From contig JAIBJG010000008.1 of assembly GCA_020029475.1 (NCBI GenBank), forward strand, positions 1 to 36,249: a stretch of 36,249 bases of DNA, given 5' to 3'. This document shows positions 10,407 through 36,249 of this stretch, one piece after another. Under the pieces are notes generated by a model. The model worked only from the letters and a program-made list of their open reading frames with translations, made no database searches and was not told the DNA's origin. The number at the start of each line of letters is the position of its first letter. Position 1 is the stretch's first letter. This DNA comes from Methanobacteriota archaeon (GTDB taxonomy: Archaea > Thermoplasmatota > Thermoplasmata > RBG-16-68-12). A program made the translations under genes and the position numbers.

Positions 10407-13400
10407 GTGAGCGGGTACCTCAAAGACATCGCGCTCCGGAAACAACTCGAGGAGAAGGTACGGGAGGCGACCCGGTCCCGCTCGGACGCGGAGAAGGCCC
10501 TACAGAGCGCGGGCGACCTGATCACATCGGGCCGACGGGTCGACGCCGTCACGACGGAGGCGGACGAGTTACTCGCGGAGGCCACCTCCGCGATGACCGC
10601 GAAGGACTACCGCCTCGCCCTCGACAAGGCCGTCGCCGCGAGGGACAAGGCCCGCCGGATCTACGAGGAGCGGGTGAAGGAAATCGTGAACGCGAGCGCC
10701 AGCCTCGTGACGATGACGAAGGCGCTCGGCTCGGATGTCGTGGAGAACGAGGTCGCGATCACCCGGGCGCGCGAGGCGCTCGGCTCGGAGGACTTCGAGA
10801 CCGCGATCGACCTGGCGAAGAAGGTGTGGAAGCGCCAGGAGAAGGTCCTACACGAGCACATGTCCGGCTCCTTCTCCCGCGCGCAGAGCCTGATCATGGC
10901 CGCGAAGAACCTCGGGCGGGACACGGGCCCCGTCGAGGACCTCCTCTCCCGCGCGCGGTCCGCGATGGAGTCGAACGACTTCGAGCTCGCGATGGGGTTC
11001 ACGAAGGAGTGCCTGGAGACCGTGACGGGTGAGCTCCGCTCGGAGCTCGACCGCTCGATCCTCGACTCCGAGGGACTGATGCGGACCGCGAAGGAGATGG
11101 GCGCGGACGCCACGAAGATGGCCCAGCTCATCGAGAGGGCCCGGGCGGACATGGAGAAGCTCGAATTCGAGAAGGCGTTCAACGCCCTGAAGCAGAGCAA
11201 GGCGGAGGGGGACAAGGCCCTCCAGAAGGGGCTCGAGGGCAAGATCACGGATTTCACCCAGTGGGTCGCGAAGGCGGAGAAGCTCGGGGCGAACACGACC
11301 CCGGCCCGGGCCGCGTTCCGGCACGCGGAGGGCGCGATCCGGGAGAACCGGTACCAGGACGGGGCGACGTTCGCCCGCCAGGGGTTCCAGGCCCTCCAGC
11401 AGGCGCAGTTCCAGCGGGTCCTCCTGATGATGAACCAGAGCCGGGACAAGTTCATCGCGGCGAAGAGCCTCGGGGCGGACCTCGGCGGGCCCTTCGGGCT
11501 CTTCGAGCAGGCCCGCCAGGCCCTCCAGCAGGGGGACTTCGAGGCCGCGGTCGGCGCGGTCCGGAAGGCGGACGCGGATATCGACCGGATCGTATCCGAG
11601 TCCCGGGACGTCGAGGGTTCCGTGCGGGACTTCACGAAGACGATCGCGGAGGCAGAGACCCTGGGGGTCGCGGTCGGGAACGCCCGGCGGCACCTGGACC
11701 GGGCTCGGCAGTCCCTCCAAGCGAAGGATTTCGCGGTCACCCGGGAGTCCGTGAAGAAGGGGCGGGAGGAGCTCGAGCGTGCGGAGTACGACCGCACGAT
11801 GGAGATCGTCGAGAAGACGGAGTTCATCCTGACTTCCGGGGAGCGCCTGGGGGCGGACCTGTCCGAGTCCAGCAAGGCCCTCGAGGAGGCGATCCTCGCG
11901 ACGAAGGAGAAGGACTACCGCCGGGCGACGGAGCTCGCGGTGAAGAGCCGGAACCTCGCGGAGGGCGCCCTCCAGAAGCGGCTCGATGACGGCCTGACGG
12001 GATTGAAGGCCTCCCTCCAGTTCCTCGGGGACGACGCGAACGCGGTCCGCAGCCTCGTCTCGAAGGCGGAGAGCGCCGTCGCGGCGAAGGACATCGAGGG
12101 GGCGTTCGGGTTCCTCGCGGAGGGCCAGAAGGTCTCGGAGAACCGGACGAAGGACAGAGCCACACAGTACCACGAGACCGTCCGCTCCGCGGTGCGGCTG
12201 ATGCAGGATCTCGGCTCCGACGTCGGCGGCCTCGACGGGGTGCTGAAGGAGATGAACGCGGCGATGGCGGACGGCCGGTTCGCGGACGTGATCGGGATGC
12301 GGGAGCGGGTCGGGAAGGACATCGCGGCCGCATCGGAGTCCGTGTTCAACCTCGTCAAGCAGAAGGTCGTGCAAGCGAAGAACATGCGGATCAACATCGA
12401 CGAGATGCGGGAGCTCCTGAAGAGGGCGAAGATGTCCCTCGGGGTCGAGGACGTCGTCGAGGCCCTCCGCCTGATGAAAGAGACGAACGACCGCGCGAAC
12501 AAGGTCCTCGACCTCTACCGCACGACACACAACGCGATCTCGAGCGCCGCGGCCCTCGTCGCGGAGGCGAAGAAGCGGGAGGTCGACGTCACGAAGGTCC
12601 TCGAGATGCTCCTCGAGTCGAAGAAGGCGTTCGAGCGCCTGGACTTCGAGCGGGCCCTGGAGCTCGCGAACCGGTCGAAGGCGGAGACGGAGAAGCTGAT
12701 GGTCCTGTACACGTCCGCGCAGCGCCTGATCTCGAGCCGGGAGAAGCTCGACGTCGCGGGCCGGATGGGGATCGACGCCCCGGACCTCCGGGACCTCTTG
12801 AACGTCGCGAAGGAGGCGATGAAAGCCAAGGACTACGAGAGGGCCCTCCAGCTCTCGGAGCGGGCGGAGAAGGGCCTCACGGACCTGATCTCGGACAAGG
12901 TCGCGAGCCTCATCACCACCGCGGAGGGCGTCCTCTCCGGGATCGAGGGGGCCGCTCTCTCCGCCGTCCAGAACAAGGTCATCCAGGTCCGCAGCCTCGC
13001 GGACAGCCAGCAGCTCGGCGCCGCCGCGGACATGGCGCTCCAGGTGCGGGACGAGGTGGAGAAGCTGAAGCGCACCTGGGAGCAGGCCGGAGTCGCGATG
13101 AAGCGGGCCCGGGACGCGATCGCGGAGGTGGAGACGATGAACCTCGACCCGGCCTCTGCGAAGCGGCTCCTGGAGAAGGCGGACCGGTCGTACAAATCCG
13201 GCCGCTTCGACGAGGCGCTCGACCTCGCGAACAAGGCCAGCTCGGAACTCACGACGGAGACGGAGCAGAACGTCGCGGGCACGATGAAGCGGTTCGAGGA
13301 GTCCATCGACAAGGCGAAGCGGGAGGGCGTGGACACCCGGTCCGCGGAGAAGCTCTTCGAGCGCGCGAAGGAGTTCCTTCGGGAGCGGAAGTTCCGGCAG

Positions 13401-14930
13401 GCCCTCGCGGTCGCGATGCAGTCGGAGAACGAGACGGAGCGGGTCTCCCTGCAGCAGGACATGGCCTCGAAGGCGATCCAGACGATCGAGAAGCGGCTCA
13501 CCGGCTTCGGCCACCCGCTGCCGCAGGTCCAGCAGATCGTGGCGGACGCGAAGGCCGCGTTCCGCACGGGGGACTACGTGAAGGCGCTCGACCTCGCGAT
13601 CCGTGGCGGGGACGAGTTCGGCCGCCGGCGGGAGAGCGCGGAGGATGCGATGGAGGCCCGCACGGGGGCGGAGCGGATCGTCGGCGTCCTCGGGACGATC
13701 GGCGCGCAGGCCGCGCGGACGGAAGGGGCGTACCGGGAGGCGGAGGCGGCCCTCGAACGGGGGGACGCGGACGCGGCCCGAAACGCGTACCAGCAGGTCC
13801 TCGAGGGCGGACTCGCAGCGGCGCGGACCCATCTCACGGAGAGGCTCGCGAAGGCCCGCGGGGTCTCGGACCTCGGGCAGCGCCTCGAGGTCGACGTGGC
13901 CTCGAGCAACAAGAAGTTCTCCGAGTCGCGGGCGCAGATCGAGAGCGAGAACTTCGAGAGCGCGTTCCAGCTCATCGAGGCCGGCCTGAAGGATGCGCGG
14001 GCGGGGATCGCGGCGAAGGTCTCCGACGCCCTGACGAACGCGGAGTCCACGGTCCAGCACGCGAAGCGGATCGGCGCGGACGTCGGGGACGCGGAGGAGC
14101 AGCTGAAGCTCGCGAGCCAGGCGCTCCTCGAGGGGGAGTTCGAGAAGGCGCTGAAGCTCATCGAGATGGGCTCCGAGCGCGTGGAGTCCCGCCGGATGGT
14201 CGAGAAGCGGTTCGTCGAGCTCACGTACAAGGCGGAGTCCACGGTCCGGAACGCGAAGAAGTTCGGGATCGATGTGAAGGAGGCGGAGCGGGCCCTCCAG
14301 ACCTCCATCCAGATCAAGAAGACGGACATCACCCGCGCGATCGCGGCGGCGGAGGACGCGTACCGTCTCGCCTGGGAGGCCGTCGAGGGGTTCGCCCCGA
14401 ACATTCAGGGGAGCCTGGAGGTCGAGGTCCCGCGACTGGACCAGTGGGCGGAGGCGACCCTCGTCCTGCGGAACACCGGGAAGGCCCTGGCGAAGGACGT
14501 GCAGGTCCGGATCCTCGGGGACGCGGAGGTGGAGGGCCTGAAGGGGCTCGCCGCAATCCGCGCGAAGGGGGAGGAACGGCTCCCGCTCCGGATCCGCATG
14601 ACGGCCCCCGGCGTGATCCCCCTCGTGATCCAGGTCTCGAGCCACCGCGTGATGGACGACAAGGAGTACACCCAGGAGATGATCGCGCAGATCGAGGTCG
14701 TCGCCGGCGCTGCGGCGGGGGCGGACGAGAAGAGGGCCCTCGTGGCAGAGTACGAGAGCCGGTGCCCAATCTGCAAGGGCCAGATCAAGAAGGGGTTCAC
14801 GATCGCGAAGTGCTCCTGCGGGCGCGACTTCCACGAGCTGTGCGCGTCCCGCGTCGGGCGGTGCCCCGTCTGCTTCCGGCCCCTGGAAACCGCGGACAAG
14901 AAGAAGAAGCTCAGATTCGACGTCGGTTAG
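10407..14930 (+). CDS. Giant helical-repeat protein with Ig-like and RING-like C-terminal domains
   Basis: I do not recognise this 1507-residue protein as a named family. Residues about 1-1320 are an array of roughly 18-20 units of about 70 residues. Each has a helix, a turn like LGADxxxA, another helix, then xDFExA and a third helix. Examples of the turn are ALGSD, NLGRD, EMGAD, KLGAN, SLGAD, RLGAD, DLGSD, RIGAD, KFGID. This suggests a long TPR-like or spectrin-like solenoid. Residues about 1332-1432 look like a beta-sandwich of the CARDB/NEW3 type (VLRNTGKALAKDVQVRILGD). The end has a cross-brace zinc pattern: C1453, C1456, C1469, C1471, H1476, C1479, C1486, C1489, as in RING fingers. There is no signal peptide or membrane helix, so it is probably cytoplasmic. 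GTG 10407 gives MSGYLKDIALRKQ; no nearby ATG is better. It follows smc-scpAB on the same strand; a role as scaffold near the condensin is inference only. Confidence 0.85.
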   Translation: MSGYLKDIALRKQLEEKVREATRSRSDAEKALQSAGDLITSGRRVDAVTTEADELLAEATSAMTAKDYRLALDKAVAARDKARRIYEERVKEIVNASASLVTMTKALGSDVVENEVAITRAREALGSEDFETAIDLAKKVWKRQEKVLHEHMSGSFSRAQSLIMAAKNLGRDTGPVEDLLSRARSAMESNDFELAMGFTKECLETVTGELRSELDRSILDSEGLMRTAKEMGADATKMAQLIERARADMEKLEFEKAFNALKQSKAEGDKALQKGLEGKITDFTQWVAKAEKLGANTTPARAAFRHAEGAIRENRYQDGATFARQGFQALQQAQFQRVLLMMNQSRDKFIAAKSLGADLGGPFGLFEQARQALQQGDFEAAVGAVRKADADIDRIVSESRDVEGSVRDFTKTIAEAETLGVAVGNARRHLDRARQSLQAKDFAVTRESVKKGREELERAEYDRTMEIVEKTEFILTSGERLGADLSESSKALEEAILATKEKDYRRATELAVKSRNLAEGALQKRLDDGLTGLKASLQFLGDDANAVRSLVSKAESAVAAKDIEGAFGFLAEGQKVSENRTKDRATQYHETVRSAVRLMQDLGSDVGGLDGVLKEMNAAMADGRFADVIGMRERVGKDIAAASESVFNLVKQKVVQAKNMRINIDEMRELLKRAKMSLGVEDVVEALRLMKETNDRANKVLDLYRTTHNAISSAAALVAEAKKREVDVTKVLEMLLESKKAFERLDFERALELANRSKAETEKLMVLYTSAQRLISSREKLDVAGRMGIDAPDLRDLLNVAKEAMKAKDYERALQLSERAEKGLTDLISDKVASLITTAEGVLSGIEGAALSAVQNKVIQVRSLADSQQLGAAADMALQVRDEVEKLKRTWEQAGVAMKRARDAIAEVETMNLDPASAKRLLEKADRSYKSGRFDEALDLANKASSELTTETEQNVAGTMKRFEESIDKAKREGVDTRSAEKLFERAKEFLRERKFRQALAVAMQSENETERVSLQQDMASKAIQTIEKRLTGFGHPLPQVQQIVADAKAAFRTGDYVKALDLAIRGGDEFGRRRESAEDAMEARTGAERIVGVLGTIGAQAARTEGAYREAEAALERGDADAARNAYQQVLEGGLAAARTHLTERLAKARGVSDLGQRLEVDVASSNKKFSESRAQIESENFESAFQLIEAGLKDARAGIAAKVSDALTNAESTVQHAKRIGADVGDAEEQLKLASQALLEGEFEKALKLIEMGSERVESRRMVEKRFVELTYKAESTVRNAKKFGIDVKEAERALQTSIQIKKTDITRAIAAAEDAYRLAWEAVEGFAPNIQGSLEVEVPRLDQWAEATLVLRNTGKALAKDVQVRILGDAEVEGLKGLAAIRAKGEERLPLRIRMTAPGVIPLVIQVSSHRVMDDKEYTQEMIAQIEVVAGAAAGADEKRALVAEYESRCPICKGQIKKGFTIAKCSCGRDFHELCASRVGRCPVCFRPLETADKKKKLRFDVG

Positions 14931-16486
14931 GCGAGACGGCCGACCCGGGCCTCCACGACCTCCGCGATCTCCCCCGCCCGCATCATCCCCACGACCCGGT
15001 CGATGTCCCCGGACGTCGAGCGGTCCGACGTGAGCCGCGGGATCGACTTCCGGATCAGCCGGTGCGCGAACCGCGGGCCGAGCCCCGCCTTCAGCGGCTT
15101 CCGGAACTCGAGGCCCTGGGCCCCGCACAGGTACTCGATCGCGACGACGCGGCGGGCGTTCTCCAGGATGTGACGGGCCTTCAACGCCGCGCCCTGGCCC
15201 ATGGAGTTGTGGTCCTCCTGGTTCGCAGACGCGGGGATCGAGTCCGCGGACGCAGGGTGCGCGTACACCTTGTTCTCGGACGCGAGGGCGGCGGCGGTGT
15301 ACTGGAGGACCATCATCCCGCTCTGCAGCCCCCCGTGTTCCGTCAGGAACGGCGGGAGCTCGCTGAGCTGGGGGTCCACGAGCCGTGCGGTCCGTCGCTC
15401 GGAGAACGCGCCGAGGACCGTGAGCCCGAGACCCAGGAAGTCGAGGGCCATCGCGAGGCTCTGGCCGTGGAAGTTCCCCCCGCTCAGGCTCTCCCCGGTC
15501 TCCGGGAAGATCAGGGGGTTGTCCGTCGCGGAGTTGATCTCGATCTCCAGGACCTGGCGGGCGTAGTGGATCGACTCGAAGCAGGCGCCGAGGACCTGCG
15601 GGATGCACCGGAGCGAGTACGGGTCCTGGACACGGTGCGGGCCCTTGTGGCTCGTCACGATCTCGCTGTCCTGGAGGAGCTTCGTCATGTTCCCCGCCAC
15701 GAGGTGCTGCCCGACCTGCTTCTTGAGGCGGGAGAGCCGCTCGTCGAACGGCACGGGACTTCCCCGGAGAGCCTCGAAGCTCATCGACGCCGCGATCTCC
15801 GAATCCTTGAGGAGCGCGAGGGCGTCCGTGACGAGGAGGCACCCGAGTCCCGCCATCACCGCGGTGCCGTTCAGGATCGCGAGGCCCTCCTTCGCCTCGA
15901 GCCGGAGCGGGGTGAGCCCCACGGACCGGAGCGCGGCCGCTCCCGCCATCCGCTTCTCCCCCACGAACGCCTCCCCCTCCCCGATGATCACGAGCGCGAT
16001 GTGGGCGAGGGGGGCGAGGTCCCCGCTCGCGCCGAGGGAGCCCCTCGACGGGACCACGGGGTGGACGCCGTGGTTCAGCATCTTCAGGAGGAGCTCGACG
16101 ACCTCGGGCCGGACGCCGGAGTACCCCTTCGCGAGAGCGTTCGCCCGGATCAGCATCGACGCCCGGACGTCGTCCACGTGGAGGGGCGGGCCCGCCCCCG
16201 CCGCGTGGCTCCTCACGAGGTTCTCCTGGAGGCGGAGGAGGTCTCCCTTCGAGACCGGCACGTGCTCGAGCTGCCCGAAGCCCGTCGTCACCCCGTACAC
16301 GGGCCGACCGCTCTCGACGATCTTGTGCAGGGCCGCGTGGCACGCCTGGACCCGCCGGAGCCCGAGATGGCTGAGCTTCACGGGTTCCCCGCCCCGGGCG
16401 ACCCGGACGACCTCCTCGACGGTAAGCGAGTCCCCATCGATCGCGAGCAGCGCACGTCCCCCGGGCGGCGATGGGACGCGCGCCAT
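14927..16486 (-). CDS. hutH: Histidine ammonia-lyase
   Basis: HutH deaminates L-histidine to urocanate, the first step of histidine breakdown, in the cytoplasm. The 519 residues carry the MIO-forming triad in GSLGASGDLAPLAH, the family segments YGVTTGFGQLEHVPV and QDPYSLRCIPQVLGACFES, NSATDNPLIF, and FHGQSLAMALDFL. Length is normal. ATG 16486 is preferred; a GTG 12 codons upstream (16522) would add a poorly conserved extension. The stop overlaps the stop of the giant repeat gene tail-to-tail by four bases (14927-14930). No other hut genes are in the window. Related MIO enzymes (phenylalanine or tyrosine ammonia-lyase) share these motifs, but the overall sequence reads as HutH. Confidence 0.9.
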   Translation of the reverse strand: MARVPSPPGGRALLAIDGDSLTVEEVVRVARGGEPVKLSHLGLRRVQACHAALHKIVESGRPVYGVTTGFGQLEHVPVSKGDLLRLQENLVRSHAAGAGPPLHVDDVRASMLIRANALAKGYSGVRPEVVELLLKMLNHGVHPVVPSRGSLGASGDLAPLAHIALVIIGEGEAFVGEKRMAGAAALRSVGLTPLRLEAKEGLAILNGTAVMAGLGCLLVTDALALLKDSEIAASMSFEALRGSPVPFDERLSRLKKQVGQHLVAGNMTKLLQDSEIVTSHKGPHRVQDPYSLRCIPQVLGACFESIHYARQVLEIEINSATDNPLIFPETGESLSGGNFHGQSLAMALDFLGLGLTVLGAFSERRTARLVDPQLSELPPFLTEHGGLQSGMMVLQYTAAALASENKVYAHPASADSIPASANQEDHNSMGQGAALKARHILENARRVVAIEYLCGAQGLEFRKPLKAGLGPRFAHRLIRKSIPRLTSDRSTSGDIDRVVGMMRAGEIAEVVEARVGRLA

Positions 16487-16509
16487 TAAGGCTTTGCGCG
16501 GGTCGCCCC

Positions 16510-17469
16510 ATGGAGGCGACACCCGAAAAGGTTCATAGCGGCACCCCCGATTCGGCGGGCGTGCAGATCGTGTTCCTGGGGACGAGCGGGTCGTGGCCGA
16601 CCCCGAAGCGGAACGTGTCCGCGGTCGCCGTGAAGCGGGGGCCTGAGGTCCTCCTGTTCGACTGCGGCGAGGGCACGCAGCGGCAGTTCATGCTCTCGAA
16701 GCTGTCGTTCATGCAGACCTCGAGGGTCTTCCTCACGCACTTCCACGGGGACCACTTCCTCGGCCTCCCCGGGCTCGTCCAGTCGATGTCGATGAACGGA
16801 CGGGAGAGGGAGCTCTTCGTGCACGGGCCCGCGGGGACGGAGGATCTCGTACGTGCCCTCGTGAACATCGGCCACTTCGCCCCCGCGTACTCCGTCGTCG
16901 CGAAGGGGCTGAAGGGCGGGGATGCGGTGGATTGCGGGGAGTACGTCGTCCGGGCGGTCGAGACGTCCCACGCGGTCCCGTCCGTCGGGTACGTCCTCGA
17001 GGAGGCGACCCGCCCGGGACGGTTCAACCTCGAGAAGGCGAAAGCCCTCGGGGTCCCGGAAGGCCCGCTGTTCAGCCGCCTCCAGGAGGGGAACGCCGTG
17101 AGCGTCGGCGGTCGGACGGTCGCGCCGGAGATGGTCCTCGGCCCGCCCCGCCGGGGACGGAAGATCGTGTACACCGGGGACACGCTCCCGTCGGACCGCG
17201 TCCTCGAGGCGTCCCGGAACGCGGACGTACTGATCCACGACGCGACCGCGGACACCGCGCTGGAGGAGAAGGCGAACCGGTACGGCCACTCCACGGGGCG
17301 TCAGGCCGCGGAGATCGCGCGGGACGCGGGGGTGCGGACCTTGATCCTCACCCACGTGAGCCCACGGTACGAGGACACGTCGACGATCCTCTCGGAGGCG
17401 AAGGCGGTGTTCCCGAACACGTACATGGCGGAGGATTTCTTCGAGTACGAGGTGCCGTACCCGGAGTGA
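16510..17469 (+). CDS. rnz: Ribonuclease Z (tRNA 3'-processing endonuclease)
   Basis: RNase Z cuts precursor tRNAs after the discriminator base, which is needed here because the tRNA gene in this window lacks CCA. The 319 residues show the metallo-beta-lactamase fold: VFLGTSGSWPTPKRN, FDCGEGTQRQ, the zinc motif HFHGDHFLGLPGL, ETSHAVPSVGYVLEE, IVYTGDTLPS and LILTHVSPRY. ATG 16510 is given as start, but GTG 16561 (VQIVFLG) would match the usual short family N-terminus and would sit about 25 bases after an AT-richer patch (16527-16538), giving a leaderless mRNA of 302 codons. The gene is divergent from hutH and convergent with the HTH-CBS gene, four bases apart. Confidence 0.93.
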   Translation: MEATPEKVHSGTPDSAGVQIVFLGTSGSWPTPKRNVSAVAVKRGPEVLLFDCGEGTQRQFMLSKLSFMQTSRVFLTHFHGDHFLGLPGLVQSMSMNGRERELFVHGPAGTEDLVRALVNIGHFAPAYSVVAKGLKGGDAVDCGEYVVRAVETSHAVPSVGYVLEEATRPGRFNLEKAKALGVPEGPLFSRLQEGNAVSVGGRTVAPEMVLGPPRRGRKIVYTGDTLPSDRVLEASRNADVLIHDATADTALEEKANRYGHSTGRQAAEIARDAGVRTLILTHVSPRYEDTSTILSEAKAVFPNTYMAEDFFEYEVPYPE

Positions 17470-17473
17470 CGGC

Positions 17474-18034
17474 TCACAGGAGCTTGAGGAGGTCCGACTT
17501 CGTCAGGATCCCCGTGACGTCCCCGCGGGTCGTCACAAGGACCGCGTTGTAATGGCGGAGGAGGCTCGCGGCGAGTTCCACGGGGGCCTTCGAGTCGATC
17601 ACGGGGAACGGCGGGTCCATCACCTCCTCCACGCGGATCCGCGAGAGCTCCTTCGGCTCCTTGCCCGCGAGGATCAGGTCCGTGATCGTCTTGTCCGAAA
17701 GGCTCCCGACGTTCCGGCCGAGGTGGAACACGGGGAGCTGGGAGAACTTGTAGTGCCGCATCTCCGCGGTCGCCGCCTCGAGGGAGATCTTCGCGTCGAT
17801 GAACTGGAGCTTCCGGGTCTGGACCTGCTCGACCAGGGCCTTCTTCTCCTGCCGGCGCATCTCCGCCTCGAGGGCGTTCATGATCCGCCGGACGATCTCG
17901 TAACTCGGATTCATCTGTCGCTTCTCGACCTTCACGATCGTGGACTGGGAGACGCCCGCGACCTTCGATAGGGCGGTCTGCGTGATGCCGAGCATCTTCC
18001 GCATCCTCGGGATCTCGTCGACGTCCGGGAGCAC
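17474..18034 (-). CDS. HTH-CBS domain transcription regulator
   Basis: The 186 residues combine an N-terminal XRE-type helix-turn-helix (about 8-58: RMRKMLGITQTALSKVAGVS, then QSTIVKVEKRQMNPS) with a CBS-domain pair (about 72-186, including YKFSQLPVFHLGRNVGSLSD and VEEVMDPPFPVI, ending GDVTGILTKSDLLKLL). CBS pairs usually bind adenosyl ligands such as AMP, ATP or SAM. This architecture is widespread in archaea. The gene lies divergently next to the S-adenosylmethionine synthetase gene, so a SAM- or adenylate-sensing regulator of that gene is an attractive but unproven idea. The upstream dyad (18061-18074) fits autoregulation. Confidence 0.88.
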   Translation of the reverse strand: MLPDVDEIPRMRKMLGITQTALSKVAGVSQSTIVKVEKRQMNPSYEIVRRIMNALEAEMRRQEKKALVEQVQTRKLQFIDAKISLEAATAEMRHYKFSQLPVFHLGRNVGSLSDKTITDLILAGKEPKELSRIRVEEVMDPPFPVIDSKAPVELAASLLRHYNAVLVTTRGDVTGILTKSDLLKLL

Positions 18035-18060
18035 GCCCGCGGGAATGCGCCGGGCTTCTT

Positions 18061-18099
18061 ATTCCTTTTGGAATTTTCAGACGACCGGGATATTAATAG
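18061..18099. promoter_or_regulatory. Divergent promoter and operator-like dyad between HTH-CBS gene and MAT gene
   Basis: The box TATTAATA (18091-18098) is its own reverse complement, so it can serve both strands. On the minus strand it would start transcription near 18066-18070, about 32 bases before the HTH-CBS start. The dyad ATTCC (18061-18065), TTTT, GGAAT (18070-18074) lies exactly over that start site, where a repressor would block the promoter. On the + strand it would give a transcript with a leader of about 100 bases to the MAT start. Confidence 0.45.
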
Positions 18100-18127
18100 G
18101 AAGTACCCGTCCTCTCCCGCCATGGCG

Positions 18128-18190
18128 ATGCGGGCGGCCGCGAGGACAGGCCTCCGTTGTCGCCCGCCGCGTGTAGAAAAGCATATATCC
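18128..18190 (+). promoter_or_regulatory. Structured leader and proximal TATA box of the MAT gene
   Basis: Nested inverted repeats lie between the two possible promoters: outer arms GCGGGCG (18130-18136) and CGCCCGC (18161-18167), inner arms GAGG (18142-18145) and CCTC (18151-18154). A second box, CATATATCC (18182-18190), would start a short-leader transcript near 18212, 17 bases before the ATG. The hairpin would only be present in the transcript from the distal box. Whether it regulates anything is unknown. Confidence 0.35.
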
Positions 18191-18228
18191 GCTGGCCCGT
18201 GTTGCGACGGCCCAACGGGGGCTTCTCC

Positions 18229-19425
18229 ATGAGCCGGAACATCTCCGTCGAGGAACTCGTCCACACGCCGATCGAGGAACAGCCGACGGAGATCGTCGAG
18301 CGGAAGGGGATCGGCCACCCGGACAGCGTCGCGGACGGCCTCGCGGAGACGGTGAGCCGCGCGCTCTCGACCATGTACAAGGAGAGGTTCGGCCGCATCC
18401 TCCACCACAACACGGACCAGGTCGAGGTCGTGGGCGGGCAGAGCGCTCCGAAGTTCGGGGGCGGCACGTTCCTCGAGCCCGCGTATGTCCTTCTCTGCGG
18501 GCGCGCGACGACGTCTGTGAACGGGGAGAGGCTTCCGTACCGCACCGTGGCGGTCCATGCGGCCCACGACTACCTCCAGAGCGCGTGCACGAACCTGAAC
18601 GTCGACGACGACGTGATCATCGACTGCAAGATCGGCCAGGGGTCCGTGGACCTCCGGGGGTTGTACGACACCCGCAAGCAGCTCGCGAACGACACTTCCT
18701 TCGGGGTGAGCTTCGCCCCGTACAGCGAGACGGAGACACTGGCGCTGAAGACGGAGGAGCTGATCAACGGCCCCCTGAAGAAGGACCTGAAGGAGGTCGG
18801 ACAGGACATTAAGGTCATGGCGGTCCGCAACCGCGACAAGATTCGCATCACCATTGCGGCGGCGATGGTGGACCGGTACATCCCGGACAAGGACCACTAC
18901 CGCAGCGTCGTGGCGGAGCTGAAGGAACGGGTCCTCGACAACGCCGTGAAGCACACGGATCGCCAGGTCGTCGTGGACATCAACACCGGTGACAACTACG
19001 ACTCGGGCATTTTCTACCTCACCGTGACCGGCCTGTCCTGGGAGAACGGGGACGACGGGAGCGTCGGCCGTGGGAATCGGAACACGGGCCTCATCACGCC
19101 ATATCGCCCGATGAGCCTGGAGGCGGTCGCGGGGAAGAACCCGGTCACGCACGTCGGGAAGCTCTACAACATCCTCGCGCACGAGACCGGACACCGGATT
19201 GCGAAGGAGTTGGAGGGCAGCGTGCGGGAGGTCTGGATCCGAATCGTGTCCCAGATCGGGAAGCCCATCGACCAGCCGCAGACCGCGGCCGCGCAGATCA
19301 TCCTCCAGAGCGGCGCAAAGCTCTCGAAGGCGAAGCCGGACGTGGAATCGATCCTGGACGACGCCCTCGGCAACATCGACAAGCTCACGGACAAGATCGT
19401 CGCCGGGAAGTGCCGGATCTTCTAG
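18229..19425 (+). CDS. mat: S-adenosylmethionine synthetase, archaeal type
   Basis: This enzyme makes S-adenosylmethionine from methionine and ATP. The 398 residues match the archaeal MAT family in length and in the opening EIVERKGIGHPDSVADGLAE, followed by LHHNTDQVEVVGGQS, KFGGGTFLEPAYVLLCGRA, GDNYDSGIFYLTVTGLS, SVGRGNRNTGLITPYRPMS and AGKNPVTHVGKLYN. It is unrelated at sequence level to the bacterial MetK domain order. ATG 18229 is chosen because it follows a TATA box at a suitable distance and begins just before conserved sequence; the frame upstream lacks conservation. It feeds the many SAM enzymes in the window (two methyltransferases, the radical SAM enzyme). The next gene, glyA, also belongs to one-carbon metabolism but has its own TATA box. 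Confidence 0.97.
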   Translation: MSRNISVEELVHTPIEEQPTEIVERKGIGHPDSVADGLAETVSRALSTMYKERFGRILHHNTDQVEVVGGQSAPKFGGGTFLEPAYVLLCGRATTSVNGERLPYRTVAVHAAHDYLQSACTNLNVDDDVIIDCKIGQGSVDLRGLYDTRKQLANDTSFGVSFAPYSETETLALKTEELINGPLKKDLKEVGQDIKVMAVRNRDKIRITIAAAMVDRYIPDKDHYRSVVAELKERVLDNAVKHTDRQVVVDINTGDNYDSGIFYLTVTGLSWENGDDGSVGRGNRNTGLITPYRPMSLEAVAGKNPVTHVGKLYNILAHETGHRIAKELEGSVREVWIRIVSQIGKPIDQPQTAAAQIILQSGAKLSKAKPDVESILDDALGNIDKLTDKIVAGKCRIF

Positions 19426-19460
19426 GATCGCGGCCCGCCCCGAACCGGCAGGCTCCGAAC

Positions 19461-19470
19461 CTATTTATTC
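19461..19470 (+). promoter_or_regulatory. glyA TATA box
   Basis: CTATTTATTC lies 32-41 bases before the ATG of glyA in otherwise GC-rich sequence, giving a predicted start about 10-15 bases before the codon, so a nearly leaderless transcript. Confidence 0.55.
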
Positions 19471-19501
19471 CGTTCCCCGCTTCCCACGCGGGACCGGCTC
19501 C

Positions 19502-20782
19502 ATGAACGACGACATCGCCTTCATCGAGGAGCAGGTGGACCGGCACCACGACTGGTTCTCGAAGAGCCTCCCGATGATCGCCTCGGAGAACGTGATCAGC
19601 CCCCTCGCCCGGGAGATGCTCCTCAGCGACTTCGGGGACCGGTACGCGGAGGGGCTGCCCGGGGAGCGGTACTACCAGGGGAACGTCTTCGTCGACGAGG
19701 TCGAGCGGCGGGTCGTCGCCCTCGCGGAGAAACTGTACCGATGCCGCCACGCGGACGTCCGACCGATCAGCGGGACCGTCGCGAACCTCGCCGTGTACTA
19801 CGCCCTCCTGGAACCCGGGGACATCATGACCTCCGTGGCCCTGAGCCACGGCGCCCACATCAGCTCCGCGAAGTTCGGCGCGGCAGGGATGCGGGCGGTG
19901 AACAACGTGAACTACCCCTTCGACATCGACCGGATGAACATCGACGTGGACGGGACCGCGAAGCTCCTCCGGGACGTGCGGCCGAAGGTCGCCGCGTTCG
20001 GCCAGAGCGTGTTCCTGTTCCCCACGCCCCTGAAGGATCTAAGGGACGCGTTCCAGGAGGCGGGGTGCTCCGTGTGGTACGACGGCGCGCACGTGATGGG
20101 GCTGATCGCAGGGGGCCAGTTCCAGGACCCGCTGCGGGAGGGCGCGGACGTGATCACGGGGAGCACGCACAAGACCTTGCCCGGGCCCCAGCACGGGATC
20201 CTCCTCTCCGACTCCGCGGATGAGAAGTTCGTGAAGCGCCTCCAGAAGGGCGTGTTCCCGGGTGTCGTGTCGAACCACCACCTCCACGCGATGGCCGCCC
20301 TCGGGATCACCCTCGCCGAGCACCTCGAGTTCGGACGGGACTATGCCGCGCAGATCGTGAAGAACGCGAAGGCCCTGGGCGGGGCCCTCGCCTCCCGCGG
20401 GTTCACGGTCCTCGCAGAGAAGCACGGGTTCACGGAGAGCCACGCCCTCGCGGTCGATGTCGCCTCCCTCGGGGGCGGGGCGGCGGTCTCCCTCGCGTTC
20501 GAGAAGGCGAACATCATCACGAACAAGAACCTCCTCCCCTGGGACACGTCCTCCGTGAAGCCGAGCGGGGTCCGGGTCGGGACCCAGGAACTCACCCGCC
20601 TCGGGATGCGGGAGGTCCAGATGGCGGAGGTCGCGGAGCTGATGGCCCGCGTGGCGATCAAGAAGGAGGCCCCGGAGCGGGTCGCCGCGGACGTCGCCGA
20701 ACTCCGGAAGGATTTCAGCACGGTCCACTTCTGCTTCCAGTCCGGGGTCGAGGCCCACAAGCGGCTGCGGCTGTTCGGATGA
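19502..20782 (+). CDS. glyA: Serine hydroxymethyltransferase
   Basis: GlyA interconverts serine and glycine with transfer of a one-carbon unit to a pterin carrier. It is a cytoplasmic PLP enzyme. The 426 residues show LPMIASENVISPLAREML, FGDRYAEGLPGERYYQGN, RPISGTVANLAVYYALL, WYDGAHVMGLIAGGQFQ and the PLP-lysine motif GSTHKTLPGPQHG. The C-terminal part has KPSGVRVGTQELTRLGM. ATG 19502 is right after the TATA box and just ahead of conserved sequence. Archaeal enzymes may use tetrahydromethanopterin derivatives instead of folate; the sequence does not decide this. It is convergent with the pilin-like operon, four bases from its last stop. Confidence 0.96.
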   Translation: MNDDIAFIEEQVDRHHDWFSKSLPMIASENVISPLAREMLLSDFGDRYAEGLPGERYYQGNVFVDEVERRVVALAEKLYRCRHADVRPISGTVANLAVYYALLEPGDIMTSVALSHGAHISSAKFGAAGMRAVNNVNYPFDIDRMNIDVDGTAKLLRDVRPKVAAFGQSVFLFPTPLKDLRDAFQEAGCSVWYDGAHVMGLIAGGQFQDPLREGADVITGSTHKTLPGPQHGILLSDSADEKFVKRLQKGVFPGVVSNHHLHAMAALGITLAEHLEFGRDYAAQIVKNAKALGGALASRGFTVLAEKHGFTESHALAVDVASLGGGAAVSLAFEKANIITNKNLLPWDTSSVKPSGVRVGTQELTRLGMREVQMAEVAELMARVAIKKEAPERVAADVAELRKDFSTVHFCFQSGVEAHKRLRLFG

Positions 20783-20786
20783 CGTC

Positions 20787-21287
20787 TCAGGGGAACGCGA
20801 ACGTCTCCAAGGTCGGCGTCCCGTCGATGACGAGAGACCTTCGGCTCAGGATCGCGGTCCCGCTCACGGTCCCGCCGGACTCGAGGGTGAGGCTCGGGTG
20901 CCGCGTGTCCAGGTCCGCGACCTGCGCGGCCGTGTACGACCCCGCGCGGGGCTGCCACATGTGGATCGGGGTGTCGATCGCCGCGAACGCGCGCTCCCCC
21001 TCGAACCCCGCGACGACGTAGGAGCGGTACAGGGTGAGGACGTACGCCTCCCCCGCCGCGAGGGCGGGCAGCTCCAGCGTCCCTCCGGGGCCGAGGGAGA
21101 TCGAGGTCGCCAGCTCCCCCGGGCTCCGGGAGACCTCGTCCAGGTACGCGGCGGCACGGTCCGCGATGGACTGGAGCGCGTCGTGCCGGGCCTCGTTCTG
21201 CTGCGCGAGGAAGAAGGAGACGGAGCCCGCCAAGAGGAGGAGCGCCGCGAGGCTCATCGCGACCTTCGTGGAGATCCAGTCAATCAC
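20787..21287 (-). CDS. Pilin-like secreted protein, third gene of pilin operon
   Basis: The 166 residues begin VIDWISTKVAMSLAALLLLAGSVSFF, a short N-terminal segment and one hydrophobic helix, then a predicted extracellular beta-rich domain. That layout is typical of archaeal pseudopilins, but the IEGLPLQL processing motif of its two neighbours is missing. I choose GTG 21287 because it overlaps the stop of the upstream gene (GTGA), as in coupled translation; a longer upstream frame is a shadow. It ends four bases from the convergent glyA stop. A minor pilin or pilus accessory protein is my best guess. Confidence 0.65.
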   Translation of the reverse strand: MIDWISTKVAMSLAALLLLAGSVSFFLAQQNEARHDALQSIADRAAAYLDEVSRSPGELATSISLGPGGTLELPALAAGEAYVLTLYRSYVVAGFEGERAFAAIDTPIHMWQPRAGSYTAAQVADLDTRHPSLTLESGGTVSGTAILSRRSLVIDGTPTLETFAFP

Positions 21288-21745
21288 GCGACCACCCTCA
21301 TCACGACCGAATCGTCGAGGACCTCCAAGTGGATTTCGACCGTCCCCGCCCCCAGGACGAGGGTCGTCCCGTCCGGCCCGGACATCGAGACCGTCGGCCG
21401 CTCGATGACGATCGCCCGCTCCCCCTCCCCGCTGATGCGGTACCGGACAACGTTCGCGAACGGGCCGCCGGGCCGGTCCCCGATCCATGCGTACTCCATC
21501 GTCGTGAACGTCCCGCCGCGCAGGTCGAGCGCGAGGGTCTCTGCACCGCCCCCCGCCACGGCGTACTGCTGTGCGGCGTGCGTGAGCCGGAGGAGCTCCC
21601 CCTCGACCCGGGTCCGCACCTGGCCGCGGTCGTACGCGTCGAGACCGGCGTACACAACGGGGACGGTGATCCCCAGGACGATCGCGACGATCAGGAGCTG
21701 GAGCGGCAGGCCCTCGATGCCCGAGGGGTCCGCACGGAGCCCCAT
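21284..21745 (-). CDS. Type IV pilin-like protein
   Basis: The 153 residues start with a short charged leader ending in Gly, then IEGLPLQLLIVAIVLGITVPVVYAG, a hydrophobic helix of the class III signal-peptide type, followed by a beta-rich outer domain. Archaeal prepilin peptidase cleaves such leaders just before the helix; a cut after Gly 9 fits but is inference. The same IEGLPLQL string is found in the upstream gene, so both are probably processed by one peptidase and assembled together. It starts seven bases after the upstream stop and overlaps the downstream GTG. Confidence 0.75.
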   Translation of the reverse strand: MGLRADPSGIEGLPLQLLIVAIVLGITVPVVYAGLDAYDRGQVRTRVEGELLRLTHAAQQYAVAGGGAETLALDLRGGTFTTMEYAWIGDRPGGPFANVVRYRISGEGERAIVIERPTVSMSGPDGTTLVLGAGTVEIHLEVLDDSVVMRVVA

Positions 21746-21752
21746 GGCGGGC

Positions 21753-22220
21753 TCACTGCCGCACGACGAGGATGTCGTCCGTCCCCCGGGGGAACCCAGA
21801 AGCCTCCACGGTTACATCGATCTTGACCGTGAGGACGTTCGCAGGGATCCGGACCTGGACGTTCGAGAACGTCACGGTCCCGTCGGAGGCCCCGTCCGCT
21901 GCGTCCGTCCGCGCACTCGCGACGCCCGCCCCCTCAAGGCTCACGACAATCCCCGCGATCGCGTTCCCTCTCTGGTCGAAGGCCCGGATCGTGATCGTCA
22001 CAATCTTCGTCGCCTCCTCGTTCGCCGGGGCGTCCTCGATACTCACGGTTTCCGGGCTCGTCTCCACACGGCTGATTGCGTTCGGTGCCGGGATCGAGAG
22101 CACCCAGCCCAGGATGATCGCGAGGGCGATCCCCGCCACGATCACCGCAATCATCAGCTGGAGGGGCAACCCCTCGATCGCTGCGCGCTCGTCTCGACGG
22201 ATGAGAATTCGGTGTGCCAC
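21753..22220 (-). CDS. Type IV pilin-like protein with Ig-like domain, first gene of operon
   Basis: The 155 residues have a basic leader (MAHRILIRRDERAA) followed by IEGLPLQLMIAVIVAGIALA, a class III signal-peptide helix. The rest (about 45-155) resembles a Big-1/Ig-like beta-sandwich: VTITIRAFDQRGNAIAGIVV and LEGAGVASARTDAADGASDG, then FSNVQVRIPANVLTVKIDVT. It is probably a secreted adhesive or structural pilin. ATG 22220 gives the short leader expected of prepilins. Transcription probably begins near 22230-22235 from the AT-rich patch 22256-22264. Confidence 0.78.
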   Translation of the reverse strand: MAHRILIRRDERAAIEGLPLQLMIAVIVAGIALAIILGWVLSIPAPNAISRVETSPETVSIEDAPANEEATKIVTITIRAFDQRGNAIAGIVVSLEGAGVASARTDAADGASDGTVTFSNVQVRIPANVLTVKIDVTVEASGFPRGTDDILVVRQ

Positions 22221-22771: not shown

Positions 22772-22843
22772 AGCCACCGGAGAGGATCGAACTCCCGACC
22801 TGCGGTTTACAAAACCGCCGCTCTACCGCTGAGCTACGGTGGC
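22772..22843 (-). tRNA. tRNA-Thr (anticodon UGU)
   Basis: Read on the minus strand it folds into a full cloverleaf: 7-bp acceptor stem GCCACCG/CGGTGGC, D stem GCTC/GAGC, anticodon stem GCGGT/ACCGC with loop TTTGTAA (anticodon TGT), five-base variable loop AGGTC, and T arm GGGAG-TTCGATC-CTCTC with one G-U pair. The discriminator base is U, as in archaeal tRNA-Thr. There is no intron and no encoded CCA, so RNase Z (also in this window) and CCA-adding enzyme are needed. Confidence 0.95.
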
Positions 22844-32691: not shown

Positions 32692-33804
32692 TCACCGCAC
32701 CACGTCGACGCCCGCGGCGTGTCCCCGCAGTCCCTCTCCGGGCCCGTAGATCTGCTTCGACTTCACGCCCGTGAGGATCAGCATCACCCGGAGGCGGTGC
32801 TGGAGCCCGGGGTCCACCGCCGCCCCCCAGATGATCCGCGCGCTCGGGGAGATCCGGGCCTGGACGACCTCCGCGACCTTCTCCGCCTCGCTCACGGTCA
32901 TGTCCGTGCCGCCCGTGACGTTGATCAGGGCCCCCGTCGCGCCCGCGATGTCCACGTCGATCAGCGGGCTGTTGATCGCTTCCTCGATCGCCTCGTCCGC
33001 CCGGCGGTCGCTGTCGCTCTCGCCGAGGCCGATCATCGCGACCCCGCCTCCCTTCATGATCGTCTTGATGTCGTTGAAGTCGAGGTTCACGAGGCCGGGC
33101 TTCGTGATCACCTCCGTGATCCCCTTGATCGCCCGCATCAGGACGTCGTCCGCGACCTTGAACGCGGCGTTCAGCGCGAGCCGCGGGACGAGCTCGATGA
33201 GCTTGTCGTTCGGGATCACGATCACGGTGTCCGCGAAGTTCCGGAGCTTCTCGAGCCCGAACTCCGCGTTCTCCGCACGGATCGCGCCCTCCGCCCGGAA
33301 CGGGAACGTGCAGATCGCGATCGTGAGGGCGCCCATCTCCTTCGCGAGCTGCGCGACGTACGGCGCGCCTCCCGTCCCCGTGCCGCCCCCGAGGCCGCAC
33401 GTGAGGAAGACCATGTCCGCCCCCTGGAGGGCCGCGCGGATCTCCTCCTCCGCCTCCCGCGCCGCCTCCTCGCCGACCTGCGGGAGGGCCCCCGCCCCGA
33501 GGCCCCGCGTCACGCGGCGCCCGAGGAGGATCTTGTGGGGCGCGCGGATCGTGAGGAGGTGCTGGGCGTCCGTGTTCGCCGCGTACAGCTCCGCGCCGAT
33601 GATCCCCGCCTCGACGAGGCGGTCGATCGTGTTCGTCCCGCCCCCGCCGATCCCGATGATCTTCACGTTCGTCCGCAGGCTCGCGAGGATCCGCTCGAGC
33701 TCCGCGTCGTCCGCGGCGAACCCGCCGGTCCCCTGCGTGGGACCCTCCGGGACGCGGGGCTCGTCGCCCGCGCGGGTGATGACCTCCCTGACGATGGAAT
33801 CCAT
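32692..33804 (-). CDS. ftsZ: Cell division GTPase FtsZ
   Basis: FtsZ polymerises into the division ring. The 370 residues show NVKIIGIGGGGTNTIDRLVE, the tubulin signature GLGGGTGTGGAP, the NTDAQHLL segment, and the catalytic T7 loop NLDFNDIKTIM. The C-terminal domain ends at GLRGHAAGVDVVR. The 45-residue N-terminal tail is typical of archaeal FtsZ. ATG 33804 is chosen from the conserved length; a much longer upstream frame is a shadow of the gene on the other strand. It is followed by secE with overlap of stop and start context. A second ftsZ lies 2 kb away in the same orientation; this copy, coupled to secE and spt5, corresponds by context to the FtsZ1 type of haloarchaea. Confidence 0.96.
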   Translation of the reverse strand: MDSIVREVITRAGDEPRVPEGPTQGTGGFAADDAELERILASLRTNVKIIGIGGGGTNTIDRLVEAGIIGAELYAANTDAQHLLTIRAPHKILLGRRVTRGLGAGALPQVGEEAAREAEEEIRAALQGADMVFLTCGLGGGTGTGGAPYVAQLAKEMGALTIAICTFPFRAEGAIRAENAEFGLEKLRNFADTVIVIPNDKLIELVPRLALNAAFKVADDVLMRAIKGITEVITKPGLVNLDFNDIKTIMKGGGVAMIGLGESDSDRRADEAIEEAINSPLIDVDIAGATGALINVTGGTDMTVSEAEKVAEVVQARISPSARIIWGAAVDPGLQHRLRVMLILTGVKSKQIYGPGEGLRGHAAGVDVVR

Positions 33805-33810
33805 GGCTGG

Positions 33811-33880
33811 CCCTCCGGGTAACCCGGTAAACCGCCAACAAACGGCGGTCGGATGCAAGTAGGATTTCCCTATTAAGGCT
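33811..33880 (-). promoter_or_regulatory. ftsZ promoter and leader with two hairpins
   Basis: On the minus strand, CTTAATAGG (33871-33878 region) is a TATA-like box; transcription should start near 33850. The leader is two hairpins. The first has arms ACCGCC/GGCGGT (33849-33844 with 33836-33831, seven-base loop). The second has CCGGG/CCCGG (33827-33823 with 33819-33815, three-base loop). The second overlaps the ribosome-binding site GGAGGG (33816-33811), which is seven bases before the start codon, so folding could limit translation. Confidence 0.45.
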
Positions 33881-35422: not shown

Positions 35423-35444
35423 GTTACCTCTAAGTAGAGGTAAC
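35423..35444. repeat. 22-bp palindrome, copy 1 (contains the stop codon of the small gene)
   Basis: Arms GTTACCTCTA and TAGAGGTAAC are exact inverted repeats around a central AG. An identical copy lies at 35685-35706 in the same orientation. The minus-strand TAG stop of the small gene is inside this copy. It is also 35 bases after the oxidase stop and could end that transcript. Confidence 0.8.
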
Positions 35445-35681
35445 CGCGGCCCGGGCGACGAGCCGCTCGATCCGCGCTCGCCGGCGGGCGAAGTCCTGCT
35501 CCGCCCTCCCGTGGTACGAGGCCATCCGCCGAAGGACGTCCTGGCGGGCCCTCTCGTCGTCGACGCGGCCGATGTAGTCCTCCCTCCGCACGGACCGACC
35601 CCCGTCCCGCTCGTAGTGCCAGAAGTAGAAGTACCGATGCCCACGGATCTCCCGCACCCGCGCTCCGCACCCGATCTCCAT
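35430..35681 (-). CDS. Small basic protein bracketed by identical palindromes
   Basis: I do not recognise this 83-residue protein. It begins MEIGCGARVREIRGHRYFYF, with FWHYERDGGRSVRREDYIGR, then a helical Arg-rich half (DERARQDVLRRMASYHGRAE, QDFARRRARIERLVARAAVT). The N-terminal REIRGHRYFYFWHYE part resembles the start of some archaeal transposase or integrase-like proteins, but it is too short to be one. It is strongly basic and may bind nucleic acid. ATG 35681 lies three bases downstream of one palindrome copy and the stop lies in the other. A box TTAAG (35717-35721) upstream would place the transcript start within the palindrome. The gene lies between the oxidase and the second ftsZ. Confidence 0.65.
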   Translation of the reverse strand: MEIGCGARVREIRGHRYFYFWHYERDGGRSVRREDYIGRVDDERARQDVLRRMASYHGRAEQDFARRRARIERLVARAAVTST

Positions 35682-35684
35682 GTT

Positions 35685-35706
35685 GTTACCTCTAAGTAGA
35701 GGTAAC
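35685..35706. repeat. 22-bp palindrome, copy 2 (over the promoter start of the small gene)
   Basis: It is identical in all 22 positions to the copy at 35423-35444, in direct orientation, 262 bp away. It covers the predicted transcript start of the small gene, immediately ahead of its ATG, a position where a bound protein would repress it. Confidence 0.8.
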
Positions 35707-35814
35707 ACGCGGAGGGTCTTAAGCCTTCGCCGGGGGTCCCCGAACGTGCTCCATGGAGCGTGGCGTGCTCAATCGGAGCCGTGGCCCCGGGACGGGAGAG
35801 GGCCTCGGCGGCCC

Positions 35815-36249
35815 TCACTTGATCGAGTCGACCCCGTACTTCGCCCGGGTCTCCGCGGGGTCGTGACGACCGAGGATCTGCTTCGACTTCACCCCGGTCG
35901 CGACGAGCATCACCCGCAGCGTGTGCTCGACGGTCGGGTCCACCGTGGCGCCCCAGATGATCCGGGCCGTCGGGGAGACCTTCTGCTGGACGACCTCCGC
36001 GCACCGCTCCGCCTCCGCGATCGTCATGTCCGTGCCGCCCGTGACGTTCACGAGCACTCCATGGGCCGTGGAGATGTCCACCTCGAGGAGCGGGGAGTTG
36101 ATCGCCTCCGAGATCGCCTCGAGCGCGCGGCCGTCCCCGACCGCCTGGCTCTCGCCCATCCCGATCATCGCGACCCCGCCGCCCTTCATGATCGTCTTCA
36201 CGTCGTTGAAGTCCAGGTTCACGAGCCCGGGCTTCGTGATGATCTCCGT
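35815..36249 (-). CDS. Second FtsZ paralogue, C-terminal part (5' end outside window)
   Basis: The frame is open to the window edge. The 144 visible residues start TEIITKPGLVNLDFNDVKTI, including the catalytic T7 loop, followed by NVTGGTDMTIAEAERCAEVV, SPTARIIWGATVDPTVEHTL and RVMLVATGVKSKQILGRHD. The end is ETRAKYGVDSIK. It is about two-thirds identical by eye to the same part of the ftsZ at 32692-33804, so the two are paralogues. Many archaea have FtsZ1 and FtsZ2, but usually at separate loci. Since the other copy is linked to secE and spt5, this one may be the FtsZ2-type, to be decided by a tree. Confidence 0.93.
   Translation of the reverse strand, partial: TEIITKPGLVNLDFNDVKTIMKGGGVAMIGMGESQAVGDGRALEAISEAINSPLLEVDISTAHGVLVNVTGGTDMTIAEAERCAEVVQQKVSPTARIIWGATVDPTVEHTLRVMLVATGVKSKQILGRHDPAETRAKYGVDSIK

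Follow-up and report, generated by a model that had tools for sequence, protein, structure and literature searches.

A lineage-restricted family of small archaeal proteins, probably DNA-binding, whose genes are associated with subfamily-specific palindromes

We describe a lineage-restricted and previously undescribed family of archaeal proteins of about 80 residues, probably DNA-binding, whose genes are associated across the family with 22-bp palindromes that lie at the promoter or start and, in many copies, also at the stop codon. The family named here is missed by annotation libraries. The explanation that we favour, with a probability of about 0.68, is that these genes encode autoregulating DNA-binding proteins with cognate dyads, that further dyads serve as barrier sites at gene ends, and that gene and dyads together form a cassette of about 330 bp which is occasionally copied or lost.

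The window, the whole stretch of 36,249 nucleotides that was analysed, contains the palindrome GTTACCTCTAAGTAGAGGTAAC exactly twice, at 35423-35444 and 35685-35706. As the preliminary description had reported, the two copies are identical and in direct orientation, with a start-to-start distance of 262 bp; each forms a perfect inverted repeat, with 2 bases at its centre, and the copy at 35685-35706 can be extended to a 24-bp dyad. The 83-residue gene occupies 35430-35681 on the minus strand, with its ATG at 35681 and its TAG at 35432-35430. The 5' palindrome (35685-35706), the proposed operator, stops 3 nt short of the ATG and holds the same position in other copies. Reading the minus-strand frame bore out the earlier claim that the stop codon lies inside the 3' palindrome (35423-35444), whose part past the stop is conserved in relatives. 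Also on the minus strand lie the promoter-like left element of the cassette (35725-35750), of which the window's genus has a variant, and a possible TATA-like word, CTTAAG (35718-35723), 37-42 nt before the ATG; should this word act as a TATA box, it could place the transcript start within the 5' palindrome. Two genes at 32692-33822 and 35815-36249, which we take from their sequence to be FtsZ-like, flank a FAD-oxidase-like gene beside the 83-residue gene, and a tRNA is found elsewhere in the window, at 22772-22843. The exact 18-base core of the palindrome is present in 20 of the 22 family genomes, at 1-8 places per genome, and the palindrome pair stands above chance because the reversed-pattern control gave zero matches in these 22 genomes. 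When up to 3 mismatches were allowed in 8 genomes, the real pattern had 72 forward matches versus 14 for the reversed control. These core controls, together with the family-wide shuffles reported below, rule out a chance repeat.

Multiple copies of the gene, which the preliminary description had proposed to look for, were indeed found: the window's own genome (136 contigs, 1.94 Mb, 90.8% complete) has 8 related genes. A search with a 29-row alignment detected relatives in 28 of the 37 genomes of the order and, in a sample of the phylum, in 3 of 389 genomes, the window's own among the three; one of these three matches is weak (E 1.4e-4), lies inside a 300-residue frame and may be false. The named relatives come from 'Euryarchaeota archaeon' metagenome-assembled genomes (MAGs), mostly with soil-depth names (24 loci), and are probably members of Thermoplasmatota, close to the GTDB order RBG-16-68-12 (Ca. 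Angelarchaeales; PMC9038741). We collected 124 copies, leaving out about ten weaker matches of the order-wide search; one copy (L152) has an in-frame stop. The evidence base consists of MAGs with crude gene calls. No significant match for the family was obtained in Pfam (29 members searched), NCBIfam, PHROGs or PADLOC. The best library match was phrog_23443, of unknown function, for one paralog only (E 0.0042), and the best PDB sequence match for the protein had an E of 0.92. A virus gene and a plasmid gene were both considered and rejected: 72 viral-contig stretches fit the peptide pattern, none of them a relative, and the plasmid search gave no match. In the literature, as far as its text was accessible, neither the peptide nor the palindrome sequence led to the family, and no paper on palindromes of Angelarchaeales was found.

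To describe the upstream dyads, we used 121 of the 124 copies, having dropped proteins below 60 residues or genes with less than 75 nt of upstream sequence; a dyad was defined as a 22-mer in which 8 or more of 10 pairs are complementary, located within 75 nt of the start. Such a dyad, operator-like and at the gene's own promoter as judged from sequence, precedes 105 of the 121 copies (2.95 in shuffles), and all 10 pairs are complementary upstream of 52 copies (0.0 in shuffles); the other 16 copies have no clear upstream dyad. Dyad starts cluster at -38 to -35 from the start codon, the commonest position, at -30 to -22 and at -62 to -49; the peak of TATA-like words in this lineage is at -35 to -29. 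The commonest dyad position hence overlies the zone of the TATA-like words, and the dyad of the window's subfamily starts near -25. Since the dyad would lie over either the TATA-like zone or the transcript start, we infer that the protein, when bound to its 5' dyad, would cover the TATA box or the transcript start and repress its own promoter.

Most dyads have the outer bases GTTA...TAAC in common and vary in their five inner bases, which define the classes CCTCT, TAGTT, CCCTT, TCGTT, ACCTT and rarer ones. Placed on the protein tree of 123 copies, which is built from 60 columns and poorly resolved, the inner five bases require 7 changes, close to the minimum of 6, versus a mean of 46.9 after shuffling. 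Shared ancestry or linkage of the protein and its upstream dyad can by itself yield such an association, and because the two are linked, only unlinked sites argue against a code of purely ancestral origin. Sites unlinked to a gene carry the sequence of a gene-linked site of the same genome. This test is strong in the window's own genome, where GTTR-N14-YAAC occurs 39 times (reversed control: 12) and 29 of these sites keep 4 or more of the 6 inner pairs; it is weak in G020, where 28 occurrences versus 34 in the control show no excess and 10 of the 28 reach that number of inner pairs. On five contigs of the own genome (G000), C49, C53, C82, C87 and C111 (L281, L282, L036, L284, L037), sites of other subfamilies stand in pairs or trios, 1.5-5 kb apart. 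We propose that the family has grown by duplication and that its subfamilies have each moved to their own inner bases in a mostly shared frame; as these bases are private to each subfamily, the paralogs would not cross-talk. About 120 natural protein-site pairs that differ in five inner bases make the specificity code of a sheet-type DNA-binding domain readable and testable.

The predicted structure weakly resembles DNA-binding domains. The model (pLDDT 92.3, pTM 0.74) has strands at residues 5-12, 15-26 and 29-39 and a helix at 43-81, that is, a beta-beta-beta-alpha fold of three strands and one long helix. Foldseek returned nothing at an E of 0.001 or better (best E 0.29), and AP2 and integrase-arm folds were absent among the 50 Foldseek matches listed. 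In the VIA comparison, in which every match had a Z below 8, the DNA-recognition region of PI-SceI scored Z 6.9, the AP2 domain 6sy0 scored Z 5.6, and the integrase arm-type domains 3jtz and 3rmp scored Z 4.1 and 4.0; unrelated structures with similar Z values stand among them. The residues that best separate the palindrome classes, uncorrected for ancestry, include 8, 10, 25, 32 and 34. Residues 8 and 10 lie on strand 1 and residues 32 and 34 on strand 3; in the model, this alternation is as expected of a sheet face that reads DNA. The small protein, probably a dimer, would recognise its own 22-bp dyad. Self-regulation, which the preliminary description had offered among its readings, receives indirect support from the dyad at the promoter or start, from the code that tracks the subfamilies and from the DNA-binding-like predicted fold.

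A second dyad downstream of the gene was sought in 104 of the 121 copies and counted as cognate with at most 5 mismatches in 22. It was present in 61 of 104 copies (0.0 in shuffles), comprising 38 of the 42 copies in the CCTCT classes and 23 of the 62 elsewhere; 43 of 104 copies have no detectable 3' copy, among them 39 of the 62 outside the CCTCT classes. Bracketing is general, yet not universal. Within the subfamily of the window's gene, a second copy with at most 4 mismatches in 18 accompanies the gene at each of the 34 gene-bearing places that contain an exact core. The commonest change in this 3' copy, TCT to TCC, is silent in the encoded Thr-Ser-Thr-stop, and the half past the stop is usually kept; therefore, coding alone does not account for the conservation of the repeat. 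Bound to the 3' dyads, and to the dyads that stand without a gene, the protein might act as a gene-end barrier, either a roadblock terminator or an insulator, or these dyads might be operators. The tie between a probable operator and a stop codon is relevant to the question of how archaeal genes are kept insulated from one another.

Dyads without the gene, or solo sites, make up 47 of the 81 places with an exact core, the remaining 34 being gene-bearing. The presence of the palindrome at many sites without the gene had been named beforehand as the mark of a generic terminator or REP-like repeat; the 47 places speak for that view, but the palindrome is specific to the gene-bearing lineage, the exact core being found in 1 of the 389 phylum-sample genomes, the window's own. 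The same slots hold solo sites repeatedly, with as many as nine loci for one slot, a recurrence that is not by itself proof of selection because only exact cores were sought. With slot 1 set aside as cassette-derived, 2 of 16 independent solo slots lie between divergent genes, versus 83 of 245 neighbouring pairs (crude gene calls), and a gene 3' end lies within about 50 nt in 12 of the 16. The excess of solo sites at gene ends is modest; several slots lie between convergent genes. In L030, L148, L150 and L155, the stop codons of unrelated genes, with Thr-Ser-Lys or Thr-Ser-Thr endings, fall within the solo palindrome. The EamA slot, between convergent genes, has dyads of different subfamilies (L283 1950-1971; slot 0 loci L119, L122, L138, L144, L089): in genus 2 it is occupied by the main dyad, in the own genome by GTTATGGTCAATTAACCATAAC. 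Among the neighbours are genes that we take, from sequence alone, to encode thioredoxin, PolD, EndA, EamA, Nob1, MtnA and eIF5A. No evident pathway unites the genes near solo sites: a one-carbon pathway, considered for glyA, metF and purH near own-genome sites, was rejected as the second genus had other genes there. The idea that every solo site is the scar of a lost gene was likewise rejected, only 1 of 46 keeping the left element. In L142, near position 367, a perfect palindrome follows what, read by eye, appear to be the last codons of a lost gene copy.

The unit shared across slots measures about 325-330 bp; it runs from about 65-77 nt upstream of the ATG to a few bases past the 3' palindrome. 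The left element was tested at 33 of the 34 gene-bearing and 46 of the 47 solo places; 33 copies have it at 46-49 nt upstream of the palindrome core, four of them with a weak match. In genome G005, two copies in different slots are 95% identical over just the cassette, and one of them, a clear recent insertion unique to this genome, lies between thioredoxin-like and PolD-like genes. Of 20 other loci of this slot, 16 have a spacer of 118-169 nt and no cassette, 2 have no usable left flank, and 2, from the other genus, aligned partly; the G005 insert carries about 100 nt extra on its right side. The solo site that keeps the left element (L156, score 17.6 versus a shuffle maximum of 16.2) reads as a clear scar of cassette loss. 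On the gene tree (35 copies, L152 left out), slots change 7 times versus 12.8 after shuffling, with a minimum of 2, and supported switches are those of G005 and of G011/G012. Because the tree groups mainly by slot, vertical inheritance in place is the rule for the unit, and copying or conversion from one slot to another is rare. The left element and the gene with its 5' and 3' dyads may be regarded as a single unit, which occasionally reaches a new locus by copying or is lost. The mobile cassette that had been suggested for this locus stands in this weak form, that of a unit with fixed ends in several unrelated slots with one unique insertion and one deletion scar, but the slots are mostly vertical and no mobility enzyme is visible. 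An insertion sequence or MITE finds no transposase match, and the ends of the unit are the left element and the palindrome, not inverted termini. It is conceivable, though we hold it doubtful, that the unit is a self-propagating gene-operator pair without transposase, whose site would be at once operator, stop codon and terminator, and dispersal end; paralogous pairs with private codes would share one chromosome and mark gene boundaries.

The repeat-flanked gene, the subfamilies each with their own repeat and the intergenic solo copies would also suit a REP/RAYT-like dispersal, in which the palindrome is a non-autonomous repeat moved with the help of the small protein and transposition gives rise to both the bracketing and the solo copies. 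The unique thioredoxin/PolD insertion, the deletion scar and the 95% identical cassettes in two slots point the same way. We consider this explanation unlikely: the family (29 members searched against Pfam) has no Y1/HUH transposase match, residues H22 and E24 are not invariant, and no HUH motif of IS200/IS605 transposases was seen in the 29-row family alignment. Moreover, the left element is kept at 1 of 46 solo sites, solo slots recur in up to 9 loci, and exact cores number only 1-8 per genome. In RAYT systems (PMC3733652), the genes are flanked by REPs and the repeat is tagged with GTAG at one end.

An RNA device, with transcript hairpins at the start and stop codons that control translation or 3' end formation, appears highly unlikely. 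The main dyad could fold into a 9-bp stem and a 4-base loop, it is found at both gene ends, and the solo sites lie mostly past stop codons; against this, many subfamilies have the centre of their dyad about 25 nt upstream of the start codon, near TATA-like words, some dyads are perfect without a loop, e.g. AGGTATCCTTACGTAAGGATACCT, several solo slots lie between convergent genes, and Rfam has no match at the palindrome and gene site of the window. Main-subfamily sites with 2-3 kb spacing lie near the gene on contig C10 of G002 (11193-22099; L041, L092, L093) and on C61 of G000 (16697-21422; L034), partly at matching positions. Chromosome-organising or partition-like sites, at which the protein would bridge or load, would account for the clustering of 6 of the 10 G002 sites in an 11-kb stretch of one contig and for the partial recurrence of this cluster in G000, but no partner ATPase was noticed beside the gene, such clusters did not turn up in the second genus and each genome has several paralogous systems, so that this reading is barely credible.

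We thus retain autoregulating proteins with cognate dyads as the best explanation and compare them with known systems. The three-stranded sheet followed by a helix, predicted here, weakly matches AP2 and tyrosine-integrase arm-type domains (6sy0, 3jtz, 3rmp), and Pfam and NCBIfam gave no match to an AP2 or integrase-arm sequence family; unlike these domains, the family protein is stand-alone, has a long C-terminal helix and is devoid of the integrase catalytic domain. As in REP/RAYT systems (REPtrons), the gene is flanked by its own palindrome (on both sides in 61 of 104 copies), which is dispersed between genes, and several gene-repeat pairs are possible per genome. In contrast to REP/RAYT, the dyads end in GTTA/TAAC or variants and not in GTAG, their copy number is very low, and the protein has about 80 residues. 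Small repressors that are autoregulated through operators at their own promoter are well known. The family resembles them in the dyad at the promoter or start and in paralogs that each have their own operator, and differs from them in having a second dyad, placed at the stop codon or closely following the gene, as well as solo sites that lie chiefly at gene ends.
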